A DNA stretch of 64,000 nucleotides from Sphingobacterium endophyticum (GTDB lineage Bacteria; Bacteroidota; Bacteroidia; Sphingobacteriales; Sphingobacteriaceae), in assembly GCF_009733535.1 (NCBI RefSeq), contig NZ_SMMI01000019.1, forward strand, positions 1-64,000, in the 5' to 3' direction. Each line of letters starts with the position of its first letter. Positions within the stretch are counted from its first letter, which is position 1. This document shows positions 16,195 to 28,493 of this stretch, one piece after another. Below the pieces are notes generated by a model. The model was not told the DNA's origin. It saw only the letters and a list, made by a program, of their open reading frames with translations, and searched no databases. The position numbers and the translations under genes were made by a program.

Positions 16195-17632
16195 TTACCT
16201 TTTAGGGAGATCCTGAAGTATAAAATCAATCCAAAGCTCCTCTTTTTCCTTTATAGGGAATTCCGGGCTGAAGCCTGTCCTGTCAATGGGATTTTTGTCG
16301 GTCCAGCTCGATTTTTCAGGAGGTATGTAAAGCTTGAATCCCTGATAGGGGAGATCGGTAGGGATGGACATCCCCACATAGTCCATCATTCCCAAGGAGT
16401 TCTGCCCATAGGTCACGACCTTTTCGCTCTGTCGAGTTAGGTAGATGAAGAATTCTGTAGAACTACCTGAAAGGCCGTCAAATACCACAGCTACCTTCTT
16501 GGGCAAAGGAAGGATGGTTTCTCGTGGAAAGTTCACACTAGGTATATACAGGAATTGGTCATTTGAAAGGGAGAGCTCATTGTAGGTCCTGCGGTAAGCA
16601 TCCATTGTTTCCTTTGGAAAGTACTTTTTGAGGTCAGGTGGGTATGGGGCTGTTGACGTAAGATTCCAGATCGGCAATTTTCCTTGATGAATTTTCCTTG
16701 GAAACCCTGAGGTATGAACCGCCCTGGTCAATCTGGTCCGTAGAGATATAAGGGATAAGGCTGGTCCATCCCGATCCGCCACCACCATTGCCCCTAAGGT
16801 CAATGAGCAGGTATGGTGTTGTTCTGATCGTTGAGTCATTAAGCGCGATGAGGCTTCCAATCTCCCTGTCGTTGTTCTCGAAAGTTGGGATCTTCAGGTA
16901 ATTGAAGTCGTGGTTTATTTTTTTGAACATTAGCCCGTTTGAATTTTCCTTCCAGCTTTTGACCTCCTCCGATTCCATTGTTGTTAGTAGAGCATTCTCG
17001 CGTATCCAGAGCTGCATGTTCCAGATTTTCAGAAAGTTTCCGACTTTCTTTGCCGGTATGTCAATATTTAATTTCCTGTTGTAAAGGGATGCCGAATAGG
17101 AATTTCCTTGTCTTGCGAGCGTGAAGTATACGAACCCCGGGGGATATTGATCGGTGGTTGAAGCAACCTTGACTCCCCAGAAAGTGTCTTTCCCATTTTC
17201 CATGATCGCGATCTTCGAGCCATGTGGATCAATCCATATTCCCTCAATAGAATTTTCATTTTGGCCAGTTAGAAGTTCTTCAATCATCTTACCGTCAATA
17301 GGGATCACGACGCTGTCGGGCATAGCACTGTATTCGATCCTGAAATGTTTGTCATAGAAAAAGTTTACGTATTCCTTTAGCAGCTCAAAACAGGAATCCG
17401 GATCAGTGATCAGAGCAGATTTGGAAATAAGACGTTCCTTAAGAGCATTATATTCCACGTTTCTTGGCTGTGCGACCTTATCGGGAAATCCGGCATAGTT
17501 TTCTTCCACTTTACTGATGGTCATAAGGATATTTGCTTGACAGTCGCATTTTTCGGAAGCTTTAGAATAAAATGCACCCATAACAAATGTGGTGAGAAGT
17601 ATCCTTTTGAAAATTTTAAATGCCTGTCCCAT
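16195..17632 (-). pseudogene. Frameshifted S41-family (tail-specific type) protease
   Basis: The first reading frame (17632 down to 16634, 332 aa) has a signal peptide, a S41-type N-terminal region and the substrate-binding loop YLLIDLRGNGGGGSGW. The second frame carries the rest down to 16195: PPDLKKYFPKETMDAYRR, VAVVFDGLSGSSTEFF with the expected catalytic Ser, and the tail FSPEFPI. The frames are joined at a CCC run (GGG on the plus strand at 16640-16642): removing one base restores a continuous protein of about 479 residues. This is either a real inactivation or a homopolymer sequence error. The protein would be exported and cleave peptides in the envelope. An inverted repeat AAGTTG-CA-CAACTT lies 42 bp upstream. 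Confidence 0.85.
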
Positions 17633-18123
17633 AATGATTTGAATATGTTATGAAATATACAGTTTTTATATTTAAGTTGCACAACTTTTTTCCAGCTGTC
17701 CCACTGAATCCCAAATCAATCTGTAACCTTCGCTAACAATGGATACGATTTATATATGACAGTAAACACAGCCATTCGGCGGTATGTAGTGTCAAAGAAT
17801 TGGGAGGTCTGGCAAAAATGGAAGTGAAAATCAGAATCTACATGACTAGTTTAATCAGGTGGTGTTTCAGCCTTACAATTCCGGTTTCGAATCCTAAAAC
17901 GTATTTGGATGGAACCAGTTCAGCGGGTTAATCAACAGCTAAGTTTACTTATTAGCTTTGAAACTATAGGACTAATTTGAATGCGGCTTATTTCGAAAAG
18001 AAACCTTAAATATTTAAATGTGAAGCTAACCCGCTACGCCCTGATAAATCTTTTGTCTCTTGTAGAGAACTATGAAATAAGTATCATAGATTTGATGCTA
18101 TATTCTGCAACAATCTTTTATAT
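17633..18123. other. Intergenic region with a promoter for the DUF389 gene
   Basis: Holds the inverted repeat AAGTTG/CAACTT at 17674-17687 near the S41 gene start and the TAGATTTG box at 18087-18094. No gene seen. Confidence 0.5.
18087..18094 (+). promoter_or_regulatory. Bacteroidota -7 box before DUF389 gene
   Basis: TAGATTTG matches TAnnTTTG exactly and lies 30 bp before the ATG at 18124. A TTG at 18060-18062 is 24 bp upstream, a little far for the -33 element. Confidence 0.5.
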
Positions 18124-19422
18124 ATGATTAAAATTATTCGTTTTTTCAACCTACATTATGGAGAGGACGAAAAGGACAGGGTACTGGAAAATGTTATTTC
18201 AAATATTTCTTTCCGAGGTGCTAATCTCTGGGTGTTGGCTTGTGCTATCGTCATAGCCTCTGTCGGACTGAACGTCAATTCTACAGCGGTGATTATCGGG
18301 GCCATGCTTATTTCCCCTTTAATGGGACCTATTGTGGGGGCTGGGTTCGCACTGGGTACATATGACTTTGAATTATTGAAGAAATCTGCAAAAAACTTAG
18401 CTATCGCTACTGCGGTTAGTTTGTTGGTATCTTTTTTATATTTTCTATTAAGCCCATTTAAGGAGGCTCAGTCGGAACTCCTGGCACGTACTTCTCCCAA
18501 CATCTATGACGTACTGATTGCATTTTTTGGAGGTCTGGTTGGAGTTATTGCCATTACTAGGAAGGAAAAAGGCAATCCAATCCCAGGTGTGGCAATTGCA
18601 ACTGCCCTAATGCCACCACTTTGTACCGCAGGTTACAGTCTTGCAATTGGAAATATCAGTTATTTTGGAGGAGCAATCTACCTTTATACCATTAACTGTT
18701 TCTTTATTTGTATCTCTACTTTTCTGATCGTCAAACTCCTTAAATATCCGAAGGTAAAATTTGTAGATACCCTTCGTGAAAAGAGAATTACACGAACGGT
18801 CACTGCACTTATTGTCATTATGCTTGTTCCTAGTTTTTATCTGGCCTATAGTCTTTTGCAGGAGCGTAAGTTTGTCCAACAGGCTAATGCTTTTATTGAA
18901 AATGAGTTTACCGATAAAGGGTATACACTAATTTACGAAAAGACACATTTTAATAATAGAGCCAGGAAAATTGAACTAGCATTTCTCGATAAGAGGTTTG
19001 GCAATGATGAGATAAAAGATCTTCAAGGCCGTTTGGGCAGTTATCGTCTGGAGGGAGCAGAATTACTCATCCGTCAGGACACTAGCGACCTGAAAGGAGA
19101 TATTCTTGCAGAAATACATAAACAATCGCAACATGTTTCGGAAAAGGACATTATTATCCAGAACCTCCGAAATGAGCTGGCCGGATATACATTTAAAGAT
19201 AGGGAAACCATTAAAGAAATTACCGCACTTTACCCTGACCTTGCACCCTTCTCTATTGGGAAACAGACCGTTATCGTGAATCCCGATAGCAGCTTCAATA
19301 GAACTGTTCTGCTTTACGATTCAGATAAGCAGCTTCCTAAGGAACAAGAAGAACGCTTGTCTTCCTGGCTGCGTGTGAAACTTAAATCAGACAGCATTTT
19401 AGTCATACGAAGCATAAATTGA
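18124..19422 (+). CDS. DUF389 membrane protein (TIGR00341-like)
   Basis: A 432-residue inner-membrane protein. The DUF389 core lies at about 30-200 and shows the signature INSTAVIIGAMLISPLMGPIV-like stretch (NSTAVIIGAMLISPLMGPI) and GVAIATALMPPLCTAGYSLA, plus about six membrane spans. A C-terminal periplasmic or cytoplasmic region of about 200 residues is soluble and charged. The family has no established function. It is next to the osmoadaptation operon but separated by 500 bp. Start is the ATG at 18124 with a good -7 box upstream. Confidence 0.9.
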   Translation: MIKIIRFFNLHYGEDEKDRVLENVISNISFRGANLWVLACAIVIASVGLNVNSTAVIIGAMLISPLMGPIVGAGFALGTYDFELLKKSAKNLAIATAVSLLVSFLYFLLSPFKEAQSELLARTSPNIYDVLIAFFGGLVGVIAITRKEKGNPIPGVAIATALMPPLCTAGYSLAIGNISYFGGAIYLYTINCFFICISTFLIVKLLKYPKVKFVDTLREKRITRTVTALIVIMLVPSFYLAYSLLQERKFVQQANAFIENEFTDKGYTLIYEKTHFNNRARKIELAFLDKRFGNDEIKDLQGRLGSYRLEGAELLIRQDTSDLKGDILAEIHKQSQHVSEKDIIIQNLRNELAGYTFKDRETIKEITALYPDLAPFSIGKQTVIVNPDSSFNRTVLLYDSDKQLPKEQEERLSSWLRVKLKSDSILVIRSIN

Positions 19423-19920
19423 TTTTACGGGTTGATTTTACCGTGTTGTCTTGACTTATGGCAAGGGTGGGACAAAACCTGTTGTTAGCAAAATAGTTTA
19501 ATAGTAGTCCCAGTGAATATCTTTCTATTTTATAATTGTCGATGGACATTTTTGAGGATTTTGGAAATTTCCTTGCTGGGCAGCTAGTTTTCCTAGGAAG
19601 ATCCACCCTTAAGAAATAATCGAAATAGATTGCGAATGACAATATCCCCAATCTCCTGATTTGTGTGCAGTATAATGATGAACCTTACTAATGAAGTAAA
19701 TGTGGATGCTGTATCGGCCATGTTCAAACAAGTTACTCATAGGACACTTGTAGACCTAAAGAGTGCATCGACCCTAGACATATGTTGGGAGTTGGACATT
19801 TGAAGGTACAATATTAAGGCCCTATCGGAATCAGAAAAATAAAACTGCAGCAAAAGATCTGGGTCTGGTTGTAGGATCCCTTCAGATTATCTTCGTTCTT
19901 TTCGATGATATCAAATCAGG
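19423..19920. other. Intergenic region upstream of gpsA
   Basis: A 41-codon open stretch at 19678 (MNLTNEVNVDAVSAMFKQ) is probably a scrap. No clear regulatory site apart from a TATCTTCG that partly fits a -7 box near 19889. Confidence 0.35.
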
Positions 19921-21045
19921 ATGCATTCCCTAAAAATGTACTTATTCTTGTGCAAAATTTGCTTATTAGTTTATTTTTTATTACTTTTGTTGCTCATTAA
20001 TTATTTAACTGCAGGATCCAAACCTATATTCTATTCTGCAAAAAATCCCCAAAGATTGATTGAAGTAAGTGTTGTTGGTGGTGGAAGTTGGGCTACTGCT
20101 TTAGTAAAAATATTGACCGAAAATAAAATCCCAACCTATTGGTACCTTCGAAGAAAGGAGCAGGTTAAGCACGTTCTGGAACACGGAAGTAATCCAAGGT
20201 ATCTTCCGCAGGTCAAGCTCGATCCATTGTTAATCTTTCCATCAGATAACCTGGACCAAGTTTTATCTCGAGCAAAAAATATCATTTTTGCTGTTCCAAG
20301 TGAAGCTCTGCAACTTGTTTGTAATGGCCTTGATCCTTCCCTTTTTAAGGATAAAATTGTTTTATCCACGATCAAAGGAACTGTAGGGAAGAAAAATGAA
20401 GTTCCTAGCAGCTATTTAAGCAGAACATTGAAAATACCATTGACTCACATCGCGTCACTCGCAGGACCTTGCCATTCTGAAGAAATTGCAGAAAGCAAAC
20501 CAACTTACCTAAGTTTATCGTGCGTAAACCAGATTACAGTTGATAAGTTAGGTGTATTGTTTAGAAGACCTTACATTCAAGTTCGAAGTAACAGCGATCC
20601 AATTGGGGTTGGGTATGCCTCTATCTATAAGAATGTATTGGGTATAGCTAGCGGTATGGCCAAAGGTTTAGGTTATGGAGATAATTTCATGGCAGTACTG
20701 ATTAGCAACGCTTTGTTTGAAATGCAAAATATCCTAGAATCTATACCCGGTGAGCAGAGAAATATGTTAAATTCAACATATGCTGGTGATCTGTTGGTTA
20801 CGGGATATTCAAACAACAGTCGAAACCGACGTTTTGGAGAATTGATAGCTCAAGGCCACTCGGCAGAATTAGCTGTGAATAAATTGGGAATGGTTGCTGA
20901 AGGATACGGGGCAGCTCGAGGACTTTTTGACTATGCGAACGAGCAAGGGTTGAATTTACCCATACTGGAATCTATCTATGAAATCCTATACCGAAACCAA
21001 TCAGTCGAATCTAAATTTAAGGAATTGGAGGAAACATTGATATGA
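19921..21045 (+). CDS. gpsA: NAD(P)-dependent glycerol-3-phosphate dehydrogenase
   Basis: GpsA reduces dihydroxyacetone phosphate to sn-glycerol 3-phosphate. The Rossmann nucleotide motif is VVGGGSWATAL (about 51), and the catalytic-domain signatures KGT, AGPCHSEEI, YKNVLGIASG and the C-terminal NRRFGELIAQG with MVAEGYGAARG are present. The family has about 330 residues; this frame (374) carries 45 extra residues with a strong hydrophobic stretch (ICLLVYFLLLLLLINYL). The true start may be the TTG before IEVSVVGGG (about 20057), or this could be a membrane-anchored form. The stop overlaps the start of the synthase gene by 4 bp, so its product is likely made for that enzyme. Confidence 0.92.
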   Translation: MHSLKMYLFLCKICLLVYFLLLLLLINYLTAGSKPIFYSAKNPQRLIEVSVVGGGSWATALVKILTENKIPTYWYLRRKEQVKHVLEHGSNPRYLPQVKLDPLLIFPSDNLDQVLSRAKNIIFAVPSEALQLVCNGLDPSLFKDKIVLSTIKGTVGKKNEVPSSYLSRTLKIPLTHIASLAGPCHSEEIAESKPTYLSLSCVNQITVDKLGVLFRRPYIQVRSNSDPIGVGYASIYKNVLGIASGMAKGLGYGDNFMAVLISNALFEMQNILESIPGEQRNMLNSTYAGDLLVTGYSNNSRNRRFGELIAQGHSAELAVNKLGMVAEGYGAARGLFDYANEQGLNLPILESIYEILYRNQSVESKFKELEETLI

Positions 21046-23297
21046 TGCTATTAGCTACAGACTTAGACGGAACATTTCTAGGAGGGTCAATGGAAGATCG
21101 CCTAAAACTCTATCAGATTATTAAAGAAAATAAGGATATCCAATTGGTTTTTGTAACAGGTCGCGGATTAGAGTCAGTTATCCCACTGTTGAACGATCCA
21201 ACGGTTCCTACGCCGCATTTTATAATTGCCGATGTTGGAGCTACCATCTGTGACGGTTCTACTCTTACCACGATCGACTCCATTCAACATGAAATCGAAA
21301 GCAATTGGCCCTCGGTGTATGAACTTCAGGAGGCTTTCTCGGGGATTCCTAGCTTGGTTTACCAACGTGTGCCCCAACAGCGCCGCTGTTCGTACTATTA
21401 CGATTTAAGCACCGATCTTGCTAAAGTTCGTGAAATTGCCGAAAAAAGAGGTTGCGATGTGGTCACCTCAATGGATAAATATCTGGATATACTTCCAAAA
21501 GGTGTAAATAAAGGAAGCACACTGAAAAAGTTAGTAAGTCATTTAGGCGTACCTGTCAACAGGGTGTTGGTAGCTGGGGACACTTTGAACGACCTTTCCC
21601 TGTTTCAAACAGGATTTCAAGGTGTTGTCGTAGGAGAGTCGGAAATTGCACTTCTAGAAGCGACTGAAAGCCTATCGAATGTATATCAGGCACGCCATGC
21701 CGGTGCCGGTGGGATTGTTGAATCCATGAAGGAAAGCAAGGAATTTGCAGCCTATGTTAATGATTTCATTGAGGAACCACTTCTTCGGCAAACTTCAAAT
21801 GATCGACAGCTAGTCATGGTTTACCACCGACTTCCCTACGAACGTATGATGGTCGATGGAAAACTTCAACAAGTTCCTCCGAAGAGTCCAAATGGTATAA
21901 TTCCTTCATTATTGGGGCTCTTTGAAAAGGGAAGGCCCGGTATTTGGATTGGAGAGGAAGTGGATATGGGAGATGGGAATAAGGATGTGAGGAAAAAGGT
22001 TGACATCGATAAGTTCCCCAACCTTGATGTTTCAGCTATCTCACTTTCCCAAAAGGATATTGATAAATTTTATAGGGTATTCTCCAAAGAGGCATTTTGG
22101 CCAACAATATTTTCTTTTGTCGATAAGGCTAAATTTAACCATTTGGACTGGGAACATTATTTGAAGATCAACATGTTATTTGCTAAGAGGATAGCTCAGG
22201 AAGCCGAACCTGAAGCGTTGGTGTGGATTCACGAATATAACCTGTGGATGGTTCCATCGTTCTTGAAAACTATGCGTCCAGATCTCAAAATTGGGTTCTT
22301 TCATCATACGGCTTTCCCTGCGGCTGATATTTTTAACACAATACCATGGAGACGGGAAATCATAGGAAGCCTACTTATGTGTGACTTTATCAGCTTTCAT
22401 ATTCCGCGATATGTCGAGAACTTTATCGATGTACTTCGCAGCCATACTCCGTTTAAGCGATTAAAAACGATAAATGTTTCCAAACAATTTCTTACATACA
22501 GCATGGCACTTGGTGTTGAGGAGATGACCAAACTAATTTCGGTCGAAGGTCGAACGATCCGATTGGGTGCCCAACCGGTTGGCGTGAATTATGGGCTGAT
22601 TGAAGGTTTGTTAGCTAAAGAAGAAATCGCTAGACGAATTGAAACCTACAGGCTGGAGGTAGCGAGTAAAGAAATGAAACGTATCGTGTCTATTGAGAGG
22701 ATGGACTATGTAAAGGGGCCGCTAGAAAAGGTACTTGCTTTCGGACAATTTCTGAAGGAATACCCAGAATTTCTGGGAAAGGTCGAACTGATCAACGTCT
22801 GTACCCCACCATCAAAGGGCATGCGTATCTATGATAAGATAAGGGATCAGGTTAATCAGGCAGTGGGAGAAATCAATGGTAAGTACGCTACATTGGACTG
22901 GACGCCCATACAATATTTCTTCCAGGCCCTACCATTTGAAGAGGTTCTTATTCAGTATGCCCTGGCAGATGTGGCATGGATTACACCTCTACGCGACGGT
23001 CTGAACCTAGTCTCCAAGGAGTTTGTCGCTACGCAAGGACTCTTGAAACAGTCAGGTGTTTTGGTTCTTTCGGAATTTGCGGGAGCATCGGTTGAACTAC
23101 CCTATTGTGTCCCCACAAATCCATATGATCGCCGGAGCATGATCGAGTCCCTACATCATGCTCTTACCATGCAGGAAGATGAAGCACATTTGCGGATTAA
23201 AAGGTCCTTACAACAGATTAAACACTATGACATTCATTACTGGGGGGAGGATTTTGTAAGCGAACTTGAGGAGAGTAATAACTCTAACGAAGTATAA
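21042..23297 (+). CDS. ggpPS: Glucosylglycerol-phosphate synthase/phosphatase fusion
   Basis: A two-domain enzyme of 751 residues. The first 250 or so form a HAD phosphatase (DLDGTFLGG at 7-15, GVNKGSTLKKL, VAGDTLNDLSLF). The rest is a GT20 glycosyltransferase. It matches cyanobacterial GgpS better than trehalose-phosphate synthase OtsA: KSPNGIIPSLL, SKEAFWPTIFSF, VWIHEYNLWMVPSFL, FFHHTAFPAADIFNTIPWR, HIPRYVENFIDV and ITPLRDGLNLVSKEF. GgpS joins ADP-glucose and glycerol 3-phosphate; the phosphatase then gives the compatible solute glucosylglycerol. The fused order (phosphatase then synthase) is known from GgpPS of some Proteobacteria. It overlaps gpsA by 4 bp and is followed by mscS after 11 bp. 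Confidence 0.9.
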   Translation: MMLLATDLDGTFLGGSMEDRLKLYQIIKENKDIQLVFVTGRGLESVIPLLNDPTVPTPHFIIADVGATICDGSTLTTIDSIQHEIESNWPSVYELQEAFSGIPSLVYQRVPQQRRCSYYYDLSTDLAKVREIAEKRGCDVVTSMDKYLDILPKGVNKGSTLKKLVSHLGVPVNRVLVAGDTLNDLSLFQTGFQGVVVGESEIALLEATESLSNVYQARHAGAGGIVESMKESKEFAAYVNDFIEEPLLRQTSNDRQLVMVYHRLPYERMMVDGKLQQVPPKSPNGIIPSLLGLFEKGRPGIWIGEEVDMGDGNKDVRKKVDIDKFPNLDVSAISLSQKDIDKFYRVFSKEAFWPTIFSFVDKAKFNHLDWEHYLKINMLFAKRIAQEAEPEALVWIHEYNLWMVPSFLKTMRPDLKIGFFHHTAFPAADIFNTIPWRREIIGSLLMCDFISFHIPRYVENFIDVLRSHTPFKRLKTINVSKQFLTYSMALGVEEMTKLISVEGRTIRLGAQPVGVNYGLIEGLLAKEEIARRIETYRLEVASKEMKRIVSIERMDYVKGPLEKVLAFGQFLKEYPEFLGKVELINVCTPPSKGMRIYDKIRDQVNQAVGEINGKYATLDWTPIQYFFQALPFEEVLIQYALADVAWITPLRDGLNLVSKEFVATQGLLKQSGVLVLSEFAGASVELPYCVPTNPYDRRSMIESLHHALTMQEDEAHLRIKRSLQQIKHYDIHYWGEDFVSELEESNNSNEV

Positions 23298-23308
23298 AAT
23301 TAAAACAA

Positions 23309-24154
23309 ATGAAAGTAGAACAATTGGAAAATGTAGAAGGTAAAATCGAAAAATTTGTAGACAGTGCTATTGCGTATGCTCCCATTATAATCAGTTCATT
23401 GGTTTCAGCATCACTGGTGCTGTTCCTAGGCCTGTGGTTGATCCGTATGGTAAGAAATCTCGTGGATAGAATCTTTATAAAGCGTAATGTTGATCCAAGC
23501 ATCCGAACATTTCTTGGGAACTTGATCAACTGGACCTTAAGAGTCATCCTGTTTATCGTGGTTGTAAGCCAATTGGGAGTTCAGACCTCCACATTTATTG
23601 CAGTAATCGGTGCGGCAGGATTAGCGGTCGGACTTTCATTACAGGGGTCGCTATCAAATTTTGCAGGAGGTGTGCTGATCTTATTGTTCAAGCCATTCCG
23701 TGTGGGCGATTATATTTCATCCTCCACAGGTGTGGACGGAACGGTGAAGGTAATCGATATTTTCAATACAAGACTGGTTACTCCACAAAACCAGCTTGTC
23801 ATAATTCCAAACGGAGAGCTCTCGAATAGTAATATTACCAACTATACTGAGCTCGGGACACGAAGAACTTGGTTTGATATCGGCGTGTCGTATGATGCTG
23901 ACTTACGGAAAGCTAAGGCGATCTTATTGGACATTATCAATAAAAACGAGCATGCATTTTCGGATCCGGCACCGGATGTGGTGGTAACGAACCTCGGAGA
24001 TAGTGCTATCAATCTTTCTATTCGGGTTACCACAAAGAATGAAAATTTCTGGGCAATGCAGGAACAGCTTATCATCAGCTGCAAAGAGGCCCTGGATGGA
24101 GCAGGTATCGAAATTCCTTTTCCGCAAACAGACATCCATATCAAACGGAATTAA
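23309..24154 (+). CDS. MscS-type mechanosensitive channel
   Basis: A 281-residue small-conductance channel. Three membrane spans lie in the first 130 residues; the pore helix is AAGLAVGLSLQGSLSNFAGG followed by LLFKPFRVGDYI. The beta domain has NTRLVTPQNQLVIIPNGELSNSNITN and the C-terminal cage follows. The start is 11 bp after the synthase stop, so it is co-transcribed with the glucosylglycerol genes. MscS channels open on hypo-osmotic shock and release solutes, which complements synthesis of an osmolyte by the same operon. Confidence 0.95.
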   Translation: MKVEQLENVEGKIEKFVDSAIAYAPIIISSLVSASLVLFLGLWLIRMVRNLVDRIFIKRNVDPSIRTFLGNLINWTLRVILFIVVVSQLGVQTSTFIAVIGAAGLAVGLSLQGSLSNFAGGVLILLFKPFRVGDYISSSTGVDGTVKVIDIFNTRLVTPQNQLVIIPNGELSNSNITNYTELGTRRTWFDIGVSYDADLRKAKAILLDIINKNEHAFSDPAPDVVVTNLGDSAINLSIRVTTKNENFWAMQEQLIISCKEALDGAGIEIPFPQTDIHIKRN

Positions 24155-24485
24155 GTGGAGCATGATTACATTGATCATCATCAATCTGACTTTTTTCAAA
24201 TCGTAACAAATTATCATTTTTGATGTGTTTGCAACAAATAAAACATCTAGCTACTTTTTCATCCGGGTGAAAAAATGTATTAAAAAAATAAATTTTTTAA
24301 GGATCAGGTTAAATCTAAATCCCACGTTGCAAAAGGTTTGTTAGGATAATTTGTCTCTACGTAATTGGATGTTAAAGAACCTCCAGTTACATCATTTTTC
24401 GGATGTTTGCTCCGCTAATTATACCCATTGCCTTTAAAGCCTACCTATTCAGTGAAATTTTTCCATCTCAGATTATGCAGTTTTT
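24155..24485. other. Intergenic region between convergent genes
   Basis: Holds a weak hairpin, TTTTTCA/TGAAAAA around 24255-24274, which may terminate the osmoadaptation operon. No gene. Confidence 0.5.
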
Positions 24486-27400
24486 CTAGTTATTGGACCA
24501 TGCTCTAAATAATATCCCGATCCCAATAATTCCTAAGAATAAAATCAAAACTGCCAAGTTTTTATGATGGATGTATTTTGAATCAGATTTCAGGCTTATT
24601 AGTTTCTCCTCTTTCATCCTGTAGCCTTTTAAGGAAATCTTTGGCGCTTTTTGGATGGATTTATTTCGAATAGCGTTCTGGGCGATTTCAGAAAAATCTT
24701 TTTGTCCTATTTTTGAAGATATATCCTTTTGCCGTGCATCTGGTCTATTTTGATTCATGGCCTTTTGCACTGGATTTGTAGCATTTGAAGAGCTGTTGTG
24801 AATTTTACCCAACGCTTGCTGTAAGTTCTCCAAGGCATTTTTTTGAAGATCCGTTGAGGCTGTTTTCTTCATGAAGTCAACCAGTTTCTCATTGCCACAA
24901 ACCTGATCCGAGCAGGTTAAACCAGTTTCTTCCACCGTTTCCAGGTAAACATCCATCAGACCTGACATAGTCTTTTGATCTGGAGTCCATTTATCTTTTC
25001 GAATGACTTCCATCATTCTGGCCAACATTTGCTGATAAGCATATAGATTTCCGGATTCTAAAAACTTTTCCTTAATGTCCAAACCATATTTGTCATTTAC
25101 ATAGACATTGTTCCATTCTTCCCAATCTTCTGATCGGATAGCATGATCCGTTGTAGCCTGCCATCCCCACATATTATCTGCTACCTGACCGATCATTCTC
25201 GCTCCAGCATAGCCCTCATCTAGCATTTTCTTTATCCACTCGGGATTATAATACCTGGAATTCAGTTCCCGTCCTATAAATTTATCCAATGACTCTTGCT
25301 TCATATTTCCCGGATCTGTCAGGTTGCTGATCATAATATCGGGCTCTGTTCCGTCAATTTGCTTTATTGCTAAGGTCATCCCTCCCAGATACTGAAATAG
25401 ATCATCATTATCCAAAGCACCATAAACATTCGTTGAACGACTGTGAACGACTGCCTTAGTTCCTGAAAGAGCCTTTTTGAACAATGAAATTGCCAGATCT
25501 TTTCCGGTAGCCTCTTCAATCGCCTGCTTTCCTTCGCCCCAAAAGCCCTGACCATAAAGATGGCTGGCCCTATTAAAATAGACATCGGCAATTTCTTTGC
25601 CGCCTTCCCATTTGTCCGTTGCCTGGACGGCATCATCAACACCCAACCCATAACTTCCGGACTCAGATGAAAATAACCTGACCATAGCCAACCTTTTGAT
25701 CAAGTTGCTATCTTTTAAGCCCTCGTTATTTAATTCCTGTATCGCTTTGTCTACATGGATTCGAATGGAATTGTCCTCTTCAGTGGACCGATACACTAAG
25801 TTAATAGCTTGGTCCATAAGTTGCATAAATTGTGGGAACATATCTCTGTAGAGACCGGATGGAGTGACCACAACGTCAACACGTGGCCTGCCCAATTCCT
25901 CCCTGCTTATCAGTTGAATTCCTCTGACTTTTCCAAATCCATCGTATTTTGGTTTTACTCCCAATAGATTCAGGATTTGTGATTCCATAATTCCCTCATG
26001 CCTTAACGTCTCTACTGACCATAAATTGAAGGCTACCTTATCGGGAAACTGACCATTATGTTTTTGTAAATAATTCGATATTAATTCTTCTGCCAGTTTT
26101 TCTCCTTCTGCATAGATTCCTTGTGATGGCATTCTGGATGGATCAAAACCATAAAAGTTCTTACCGGTGGGTAGGGCGTCAGGGTTTCTTAAGGGATCAT
26201 TCCCTGTAGCCGGACGAATAAACTTTCCTTCCAGTGCATCCAGCAAACCTTGCATCTCCGCTGCTCCACTCGCCAATATTCTGCCTTTATATTCTTCGAT
26301 TAATTTTTCCCTTTCGCTTTCGTCGATTTCTTTTAAACGGTTGACCATGGCTGTTGCCGTCAGGGTGGCCCGGGTGGTATCTGGGGAAACTCCGAATGTA
26401 TGCATGCCCATTGGAACTTGTTTTTCGTTGATCTCCTGAAGATAATGTTCCAATTTTTGAATATTATCTTCCTTTAGTTCACCATCAAGGTTCAGATCCC
26501 GATTCAGATTGTTCTTAACCAAGGACTGATTGATTTCTTTTAGATATGCGGAGGACGTTGCCGGACTTTTTTCTTTGGCCAGATTATAGTCATTGATCAA
26601 GCCTGCTAATTTTTTCAATTCCGGTCTTAAGCCAGACTCTTGAAATGAAGGTGTCAAATGATCTATAATGACTGCCATTCCTCTTCTTTTGGCCTGAGTT
26701 CCTTCACCAACATTATCCATGATGTATGGGTTTATATTGACCATACCTCCAATCAGTGCATCTGATGCATCTCTGCTGTCTGCCCCAGCTTCTCTGCCCG
26801 AAAGCCACTCCAAGGTGCCATGGGTTCCTAAATGTATCAAGGCATTGGTTTTGAGTTGGTGCTTTTGATAGAGGTAAAATGCAATGTATTGATGATGGGG
26901 GGGAAGATTGACATCATGGAACATCGCTTCTTCGTTTTCTTCCCAGCCTCTTGCCGGTTGTGGCATAAGGTGCAATTTTCCATAACTAATCTTGGGCAAT
27001 ACAAAGTATGATTCTTGATGCTCGTCCTTCCATACCATGATTCTGGATGAATCCGGAGATCCCCATTTTTTGATGACAGCTTGTTGAAATTCCGGATTTA
27101 ATTCTTTGAACCAGCTTTTGTAGGTTTCTATATCTACCAAAGCCGGTTTATTTTCTTTGACTAATCTATCCAGCTCTTGTGGTGCCCAGGTGCCTATATT
27201 TCTTCCTCCAGACATAATATCGTCAAATATTCTGTCCATATCCGGAATTCTTTCACCCAGGTCATAATTATTTGCCTGCAATCCCATAATAATGCTGTAT
27301 ATGCTTCTGGGCAATACATTTAAATAGCTGGCACCTATATTATGTTTTCCGGGATGTCCGTTTTAATAGATCAACGTTATATCCTTGTCTGAATTGTCTG

Positions 27401-28493
27401 TTCGCCGTAATGCCGACCATGCTTTGATTTTTGCCGCCAAATTGGAAACACGATCTTTAAGGAGCGTTTTTTCCGTGTAAATTTGGTTGTTTTTGTCTTT
27501 TTTGAGCTCCTGCGTACTTACCACGGTGGGTTGGATTTGTCCCATAATTTCTGGACGGACTAGGGCCATCGTGCGGTTTCCAATGGGAATTCCAATTTGA
27601 CTTTTATCCCATTCCGATTTTGACTGGCTCAAACTGATGGCATTGATGACTGGAACCCCAAGCTTCTCAAATGCTCTTGCCAACTTATCTGGAGCTCCTC
27701 CTGGAATTGAAGAGAAATTGACCAAAACATCTATTCTTGATTTTCCGGAAGGATCTATGCAAAATTTCTCAATCGGTGCTTCCAAGGGAAACCCAAATAA
27801 TATGATCGGTCTAAATCCATTTTGCTCTATCGCTTGGGCATACTCTTTCAAATAATCAATCTGACCCGTGACAATTTCATATCTGAATGTATACAAGGCT
27901 ATCCAAGGTTTCTCCTCGTTTGGAATATCTTGAGCAGAATTGAAAGTTTCAAAATCACTGTATACCTTACCGTTTTTCCAGTCAACGATTCCGAATTCCG
28001 GATAGGTTTGCGGTTGCGCATTCGGGAAGGAGGTTCCCAAATGTTTATTAGTCAGATGAAGGACAAGTTGTTTAATGTTTTGAGGGCTGGGATTTTCAAA
28101 AAACTGATCTATTTCCGCATCAAAACGCATTCCCCAGCTTTGATATTCCTTTGCGGCAGGTGTTTCGCCTACTGCATAAGCGAATCCGCCCTTTTCTACA
28201 ATTTGCATTAAATTTTCACTATATCTTTCTATTACCTGTCCTATATGTACATAGCAAACCGCTATTTTTGCATCTATTAATTGATCTTTACTGTTATTAA
28301 CTGTAAAAACCTCAAAGTGGTTCGAAAATTCTGCTGATTCGTTCAACAACTGGATTGCATCGGCTACCGGTTTGCTGTAATTTTCAGAAACCAACAGCGC
28401 AATCTTCTCTTTCTCTTTTGCGTTTTGAGCATTTAAAGTTTGTGAAATACACAATAAACAGGTCAGTAATAAAACTAAATATTTGAACTTCAT
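24486..28493 (-). pseudogene. hmuS: CobN-like chelatase homologue (HmuS type), one in-frame stop
   Basis: This is one gene of about 1335 codons read from 28493 to 24486, split by a TAA at 27363-27365. Upstream of the stop: a signal peptide (MKFKYLVLLLTCLLCISQTL) and the N-terminal half (ends DNSDKDITLIY). Downstream, in the same frame, NGHPGKHNIGASYLNVLPRSI continues the CobN pattern, with ALIHLGTHGTLEWLSGR, PYIMDNVGEG, STNVYGALDNDDLFQYLGG and NSRYYNPEWIKKML. The C-terminus has one membrane span (LAVLILFLGIIGIGILF). Signal plus anchor put it in the periplasm, unlike cytoplasmic cobaltochelatase CobN. HmuS-type proteins act on haem or metal in the Hmu locus. A single base change explains the stop, so loss may be recent or a sequence error. 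Confidence 0.85.

Follow-up and report, generated by a model that had tools for sequence, protein, structure and literature searches.

A predicted glucosylglycerol synthesis operon with a GgpS-type fusion enzyme in Sphingobacterium

Introduction

Does a compact group of genes in a Sphingobacterium genome encode the synthesis of glucosylglycerol? Glucosylglycerol (GG) is a sugar that protects against salt and drought and is best known from cyanobacteria, and its synthesis is usually described as a cyanobacterial and proteobacterial trait. The window analyzed here, a stretch of 64,000 nucleotides, lies on contig C18 of a 4.72-Mb Sphingobacterium genome (G000). A sequence-only reading of this window had proposed an osmoadaptation operon that places the synthesis, finishing and emergency release of GG in one transcript, and had regarded GG as little noted in Bacteroidota. 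The latter point agreed with a search of titles and abstracts of the open-licence literature, in which no work on glucosylglycerol in Sphingobacterium or on GgpPS in Bacteroidota was found. The fused enzyme itself is already known from Proteobacteria (PMC10873239).

Results

The list of open reading frames confirmed three genes on the forward strand, encoding a glycerol-3-phosphate dehydrogenase (gpsA), a phosphatase-synthase fusion (ggpPS) and a mechanosensitive channel (mscS) (Table 1). They are as tightly packed as the sequence-only reading had described, with the 3' end of gpsA overlapping the 5' end of ggpPS and a gap of 11 bp between ggpPS and mscS. Most relatives lack the ATG at the 5' end of the ggpPS frame but keep the one that follows it at 21045, and the true start of the fusion may lie there, overlapping the gpsA stop by one base. 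An Rfam search of positions 17600-24500 with E-values up to 1 found no riboswitch or other RNA. On the reverse strand, at 24486-28493, a gene for a CobN/BchH-like chelatase is present as two open reading frames of 376 and 942 aa, split by a single in-frame stop (27363-27365) in a frame otherwise open across 1335 codons; it is either a pseudogene or the product of a sequencing error.

Table 1. Features of the predicted operon, in window coordinates
Feature	Position	Strand	Size or extent	Basis
Putative promoter	19958..19989	+	TTTG 19958-19961, 20-bp spacer, TACTTTTG 19982-19989	
gpsA paralogue, NAD(P)H-dependent glycerol-3-phosphate dehydrogenase	20056..21045	+	329 aa	PF01210/PF07479; probable TTG start
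ggpPS, predicted glucosylglycerol-phosphate phosphatase-synthase fusion	21042..23297	+	751 aa	TIGR02398, GT20 tree, 64 relatives
N-terminal HAD-IIB phosphatase domain, S6PP-like	21045..21731	+	aa 2-230	PF05116, 165 bits
C-terminal GT20 domain (Glyco_transf_20)	21810..23270	+	aa 257-743	PF00982, 416.3 bits
mscS, small mechanosensitive channel	23309..24154	+	281 aa	PF00924/PF21082; PRK10334, 210.6 bits, below cut-off

We further analyzed the family membership of the fusion protein. The HAD phosphatase comes first and the GT20 synthase second, and motifs are intact in both halves. The HAD motifs DLDGTF, TGR and GDTLND are all present, and DLDGTF, TGR and GDxxND are kept in 80-82 of 84 Bacteroidota relatives. 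This order is the one published for GgpPS of the heterotrophs Stenotrophomonas rhizophila, Pseudomonas mendocina, Azotobacter and Marinobacter adhaerens (PMC10873239). Against the GgpS model TIGR02398 the protein scored 571.8 bits, above the equivalog cut-off of 569 by a margin of only 2.8 bits, whereas against the OtsA model TIGR02400 it reached 391.9 bits, below the cut-off of 564.85. Other members of the clade score higher on TIGR02398 (593.5 bits for L051, 650.3 bits for L102); the cut-off is passed by 20 of 60 relatives, all within the genus, and by the alphaproteobacterial GgpS of Tistrella, Dinoroseobacter and Falsirhodobacter.

A maximum-likelihood tree of GT20 sequences, built without experimentally characterised or cyanobacterial GgpS, separated 21 Bacteroidota rows, three alphaproteobacterial GgpS and two actinobacterial fusions from OtsA with 100/100 support, the OtsA side including OtsA of E. 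coli and the OtsAB proteins of the genus, among them that of this genome. The GT20 domain therefore did not fall inside the OtsA clade, the placement that the sequence-only reading had named as refuting. The claims that the synthase is of GgpS type, closer to GgpS than to trehalose-phosphate synthase, and that it is fused to its own phosphatase are well supported by the Pfam domains, the model scores and the tree. The two actinobacterial fusions, from Kitasatospora (L118, 4899-7133) and Embleya (L119), have the same HAD-GT20 order and join GgpS, but their stem is very long. In Kitasatospora, the protein scored 323.7 bits, far under the GgpS cut-off, and has no adjacent gpsA; the product of these fusions may differ. 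Some Sphingobacterium genomes (G018:C47, G023:C173) carry an extra GT20 protein besides ggpPS, scoring 340-350 bits over the GgpS model length.

The acceptor-site comparison proposed in the sequence-only reading was carried out column by column against OtsA, and we take the catalytic, donor and acceptor roles of the GT20 residues to follow the OtsA structures. The donor-site residues R553, K558, D652 and E660 are kept in the fusion, and OtsA R262, K267, D361 and E369 are kept throughout the Bacteroidota and alphaproteobacterial GgpS rows. The acceptor site, in contrast, is unlike that of OtsA: G21 is replaced by N284, and R300, which in OtsA binds the phosphate of glucose-6-phosphate, by S591. 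All 82 Bacteroidota and three alphaproteobacterial rows have N at the G21 position and S, A or N at the R300 position, whereas the 15 other OtsA rows all retain both residues. Equivalents of OtsA Y76 and W85 are kept in the fusion; at the D130 position, the Bacteroidota branch alone has E.

To place the enzyme in its metabolic setting, we examined the rest of the genome. An OtsA-OtsB protein is encoded elsewhere (contig C20) and scored 929.8 bits to its own equivalog. Like ggpPS, it combines GT20 with a HAD phosphatase; unlike ggpPS, it has GT20 first and a trehalose-type phosphatase, and the two GT20 domains are 31% identical. ADP-glucose is the glucose donor in the cyanobacterial prototype. 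GlgC is present (606.7 bits; equivalog cut-off, 537), its gene adjoins one for a 471-aa GlgA-like protein, and a GH13 protein, probably GlgB, is encoded nearby, suggesting that ADP-glucose should be available. UDP- or GDP-glucose is also a possible donor. No GH13_18 glucosylglycerol phosphorylase was recognised among the GH13 proteins of the genome.

Next, we investigated how the system is distributed. Among named species, the nearest relatives of the fusion are 87% identical and come from Sphingobacterium mizutaii, S. humi and S. cellulitidis, and ggpPS is also carried by many genus mates. In an even draw of 395 Bacteroidota, two genomes passed the TIGR02398 cut-off, both of them Sphingobacterium. 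Patterns taken from the window's fusion protein were used to scan 84,980 species, an approach that favours close relatives, and recovered 64 loci, all in Bacteroidota (Sphingobacterium, Olivibacter, Parapedobacter, Anseongella and Chitinophagaceae).

Across clades, gpsA is the only conserved neighbour of ggpPS (Sphingobacterium, Olivibacter and Anseongella). It stands directly upstream in 35 of the 64 relatives, with one more divergent case (L087); a clear adjacent copy is missing in 29, and gpsA is not beside ggpPS in Parapedobacter or in nearly all Chitinophagaceae loci. The product has the N- and C-terminal NAD_Gly3P_dh domains, and a second, unlinked gpsA is present in the genome (contig C22). 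In a phylogenetic tree, the linked Bacteroidota copies formed one clade (100/100) nested in Bacteroidota gpsA, and the ggpS-linked alphaproteobacterial copies grouped with other alphaproteobacterial gpsA (100/98). These separate origins indicate that the gpsA-ggpS pairing formed at least twice. The proposal of a dedicated gpsA alongside a GgpS-type synthase is well supported, and the repeated pairing is good indirect evidence for glycerol-3-phosphate as the probable acceptor. In some cyanobacteria, gpsA, glpD or glpK is likewise found near ggpS (PMC6753628).

The start of gpsA had been placed at the ATG at 19921, which was not borne out. Protein homology begins at the TTG at 20056, the equivalent codon is TTG in 15 of the 17 linked relatives compared and GTG in one, and a promoter-like block lies inside the upstream 45 codons; the upstream start was therefore rejected. 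Those 45 codons would instead either precede the promoter and leader or form part of them.

The promoter-like block precedes the gpsA TTG, and its downstream box, TACTTTTG, fits the Bacteroidota promoter consensus TAnnTTTG (PMC6414381). The block TTTG-N20-TACTTTTG can be aligned across four close species, among which the two free positions vary as the consensus allows (TACTTTTG, TACATTTG, TATCTTTG and TATATTTG). A looser pattern, TTG-N18-22-TAnnTTTG no more than 300 bp ahead of the first gene (gpsA or ggpPS), was found at 37 of 59 loci, compared with 2% of shuffled sequences. The promoter spacer is conserved as well, in GCTTATTAGTTTA or GCTTATTGATTAA types. The whole block including the spacer occurred in 21 of 61 Sphingobacterium genomes, at exactly one site each, and a reversed control pattern had zero occurrences in the same 61 genomes. 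At 20 of the 21 sites, the block immediately precedes gpsA-ggpPS or, in loci without gpsA, ggpPS itself. The remaining site (L157, G459:C6:250434-250465) precedes only a C-terminal ggpPS remnant, in a genome that has lost the operon but retained its promoter. Of the 37 genomes covered by both scans, 12 of the 21 with ggpPS (one split gene counted) had the block, as against none of the 16 without it (p = 0.0002, kinship ignored). A basal promoter requires just the two boxes, so the conserved spacer suggests an operator.

In contrast to gpsA, mscS is not a conserved member of the system. Its product has the MscS beta domain and the C-terminal domain, but synteny led us to reject the gene as a general component: an intact mscS adjoins ggpPS in 2 of the 64 relatives (S. 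humi, L043, and Sphingobacterium sp. CZ-2, L045), broken remnants lie beside ggpPS in S. mizutaii (L042) and S. cellulitidis (L044), both of which keep ggpPS, and other genes follow ggpPS in the rest. From this synteny, mscS appears to be a recent, lineage-specific neighbour that is dispensable for the system. Given the 11-bp gap, it is probably co-transcribed with ggpPS in this lineage. The proposal of one transcript for synthesis, finishing and emergency release would apply at most to this small group. Upstream of the operon, a gene for a DUF389 membrane protein lies at 18124-19422 on the forward strand. In L085, at a site away from ggpPS, a DUF389 gene whose product is 84% identical to this one stands beside an mscS whose product shares 67% identity with that of the window, suggesting that DUF389 and MscS may travel together.

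Discussion

We conclude that the locus is very probably a GG synthesis operon with a GgpS-type fusion, with a probability of roughly 0.87. Transcription, presumably induced by osmotic stress, would begin at the putative promoter. The gpsA product would convert dihydroxyacetone phosphate into glycerol-3-phosphate, to which the GT20 half would transfer glucose from a nucleotide sugar to give GG-phosphate. The HAD half of the same protein would then dephosphorylate GG-phosphate, and the resulting GG would build up in the cell as a compatible solute. In this lineage, mscS is probably transcribed together with these genes, but it would be a late neighbour that the system does not require.

One alternative is trehalose synthesis, in which the GT20 half would be a paralogue of trehalose-6-phosphate synthase, the HAD half its phosphatase and gpsA an incidental neighbour. 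The GT20 family is common to OtsA, the PDB sequence matches of the fusion are trehalose-phosphate synthases, with no GgpS structure among them, and the Y76 and W85 equivalents are kept. However, the protein falls 173 bits below the OtsA cut-off and outside the OtsA clade, R300 and G21 are changed throughout, and the phosphatase resembles S6PP instead of a trehalose phosphatase. With a full separate OtsAB in the genome and gpsA paired repeatedly with the synthase, we consider this alternative extremely improbable. Less remote, though still improbable, is an enzyme whose product is another glycosylglycerol or glycoside, formed for instance with a different nucleotide sugar or a related phosphorylated acceptor. 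The small TIGR02398 margin and the E at the D130 position would fit such a reading, and in the red alga Pyropia, TPS-like proteins have been reported to be floridoside-phosphate synthases (PMC6642608). Against it, the fusion groups with annotated GgpS and passes the equivalog cut-off, and GlgC is present.

A further possibility, compatible with GG synthesis, is that MscS is a functional operon member that releases GG on dilution. Its strand, its short distance from ggpPS and the intact, adjacent copies in S. humi and Sphingobacterium sp. CZ-2 are consistent with this role, and the release of glucosylglycerol in Synechocystis is presumed to involve mechanosensitive channels (PMC6753628). Such channels are unspecific, however (PMC6753628), the genome has four other MscS-domain genes, and the gene is adjacent so rarely, and decaying in two sister species that retain ggpPS, that we regard this role as unlikely.

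Among the known systems closest to the predicted GG operon is the GgpPS fusion of heterotrophic Proteobacteria, in which an N-terminal HAD phosphatase and a C-terminal GT20 synthase are also encoded by one gene (PMC10873239). The predicted operon differs in phylum and in its neighbours: Marinobacter ggpPS is followed by a GG phosphorylase gene, whereas Sphingobacterium ggpPS is preceded by gpsA and followed by mscS and not by a GH13_18 phosphorylase gene. The plasmid clusters of Dinoroseobacter shibae and Falsirhodobacter algicola share the gpsA-HAD-ggpS order and, by annotation, the three activities, but their phosphatase and synthase are separate genes and their gpsA is of alphaproteobacterial type. 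The reaction scheme would be that of Synechocystis GgpS/GgpP, whereas nearly all cyanobacteria have two separate genes; degradation there is by GghA.

Overall, we read the locus as a branch, in Bacteroidota, of the GgpPS system already known, with an apparently independently recruited gpsA and a putative private promoter. The two latter elements are put forward together only tentatively, at somewhat less than even odds: in Sphingobacteriaceae, ggpPS may have gained a gpsA paralogue of the phylum's own type in an event separate from the formation of the alphaproteobacterial gpsA-ggpS clusters, and the operon may be run by a private, one-site-per-genome promoter with a conserved spacer between its -33 and -7 boxes. 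If true, the private promoter would suggest that this single operon has either an osmotic regulator of its own, so far undescribed, or a promoter that itself senses salt, and it would offer a place to study osmotic control in Bacteroidota. The two separate pairings of gpsA with ggpS, each drawing on its own gpsA stock, would be a clean case that points to acceptor supply as a bottleneck. Judged by sequence, the locus extends glucosylglycerol synthesis to common Bacteroidota of soil, plants and waste water.
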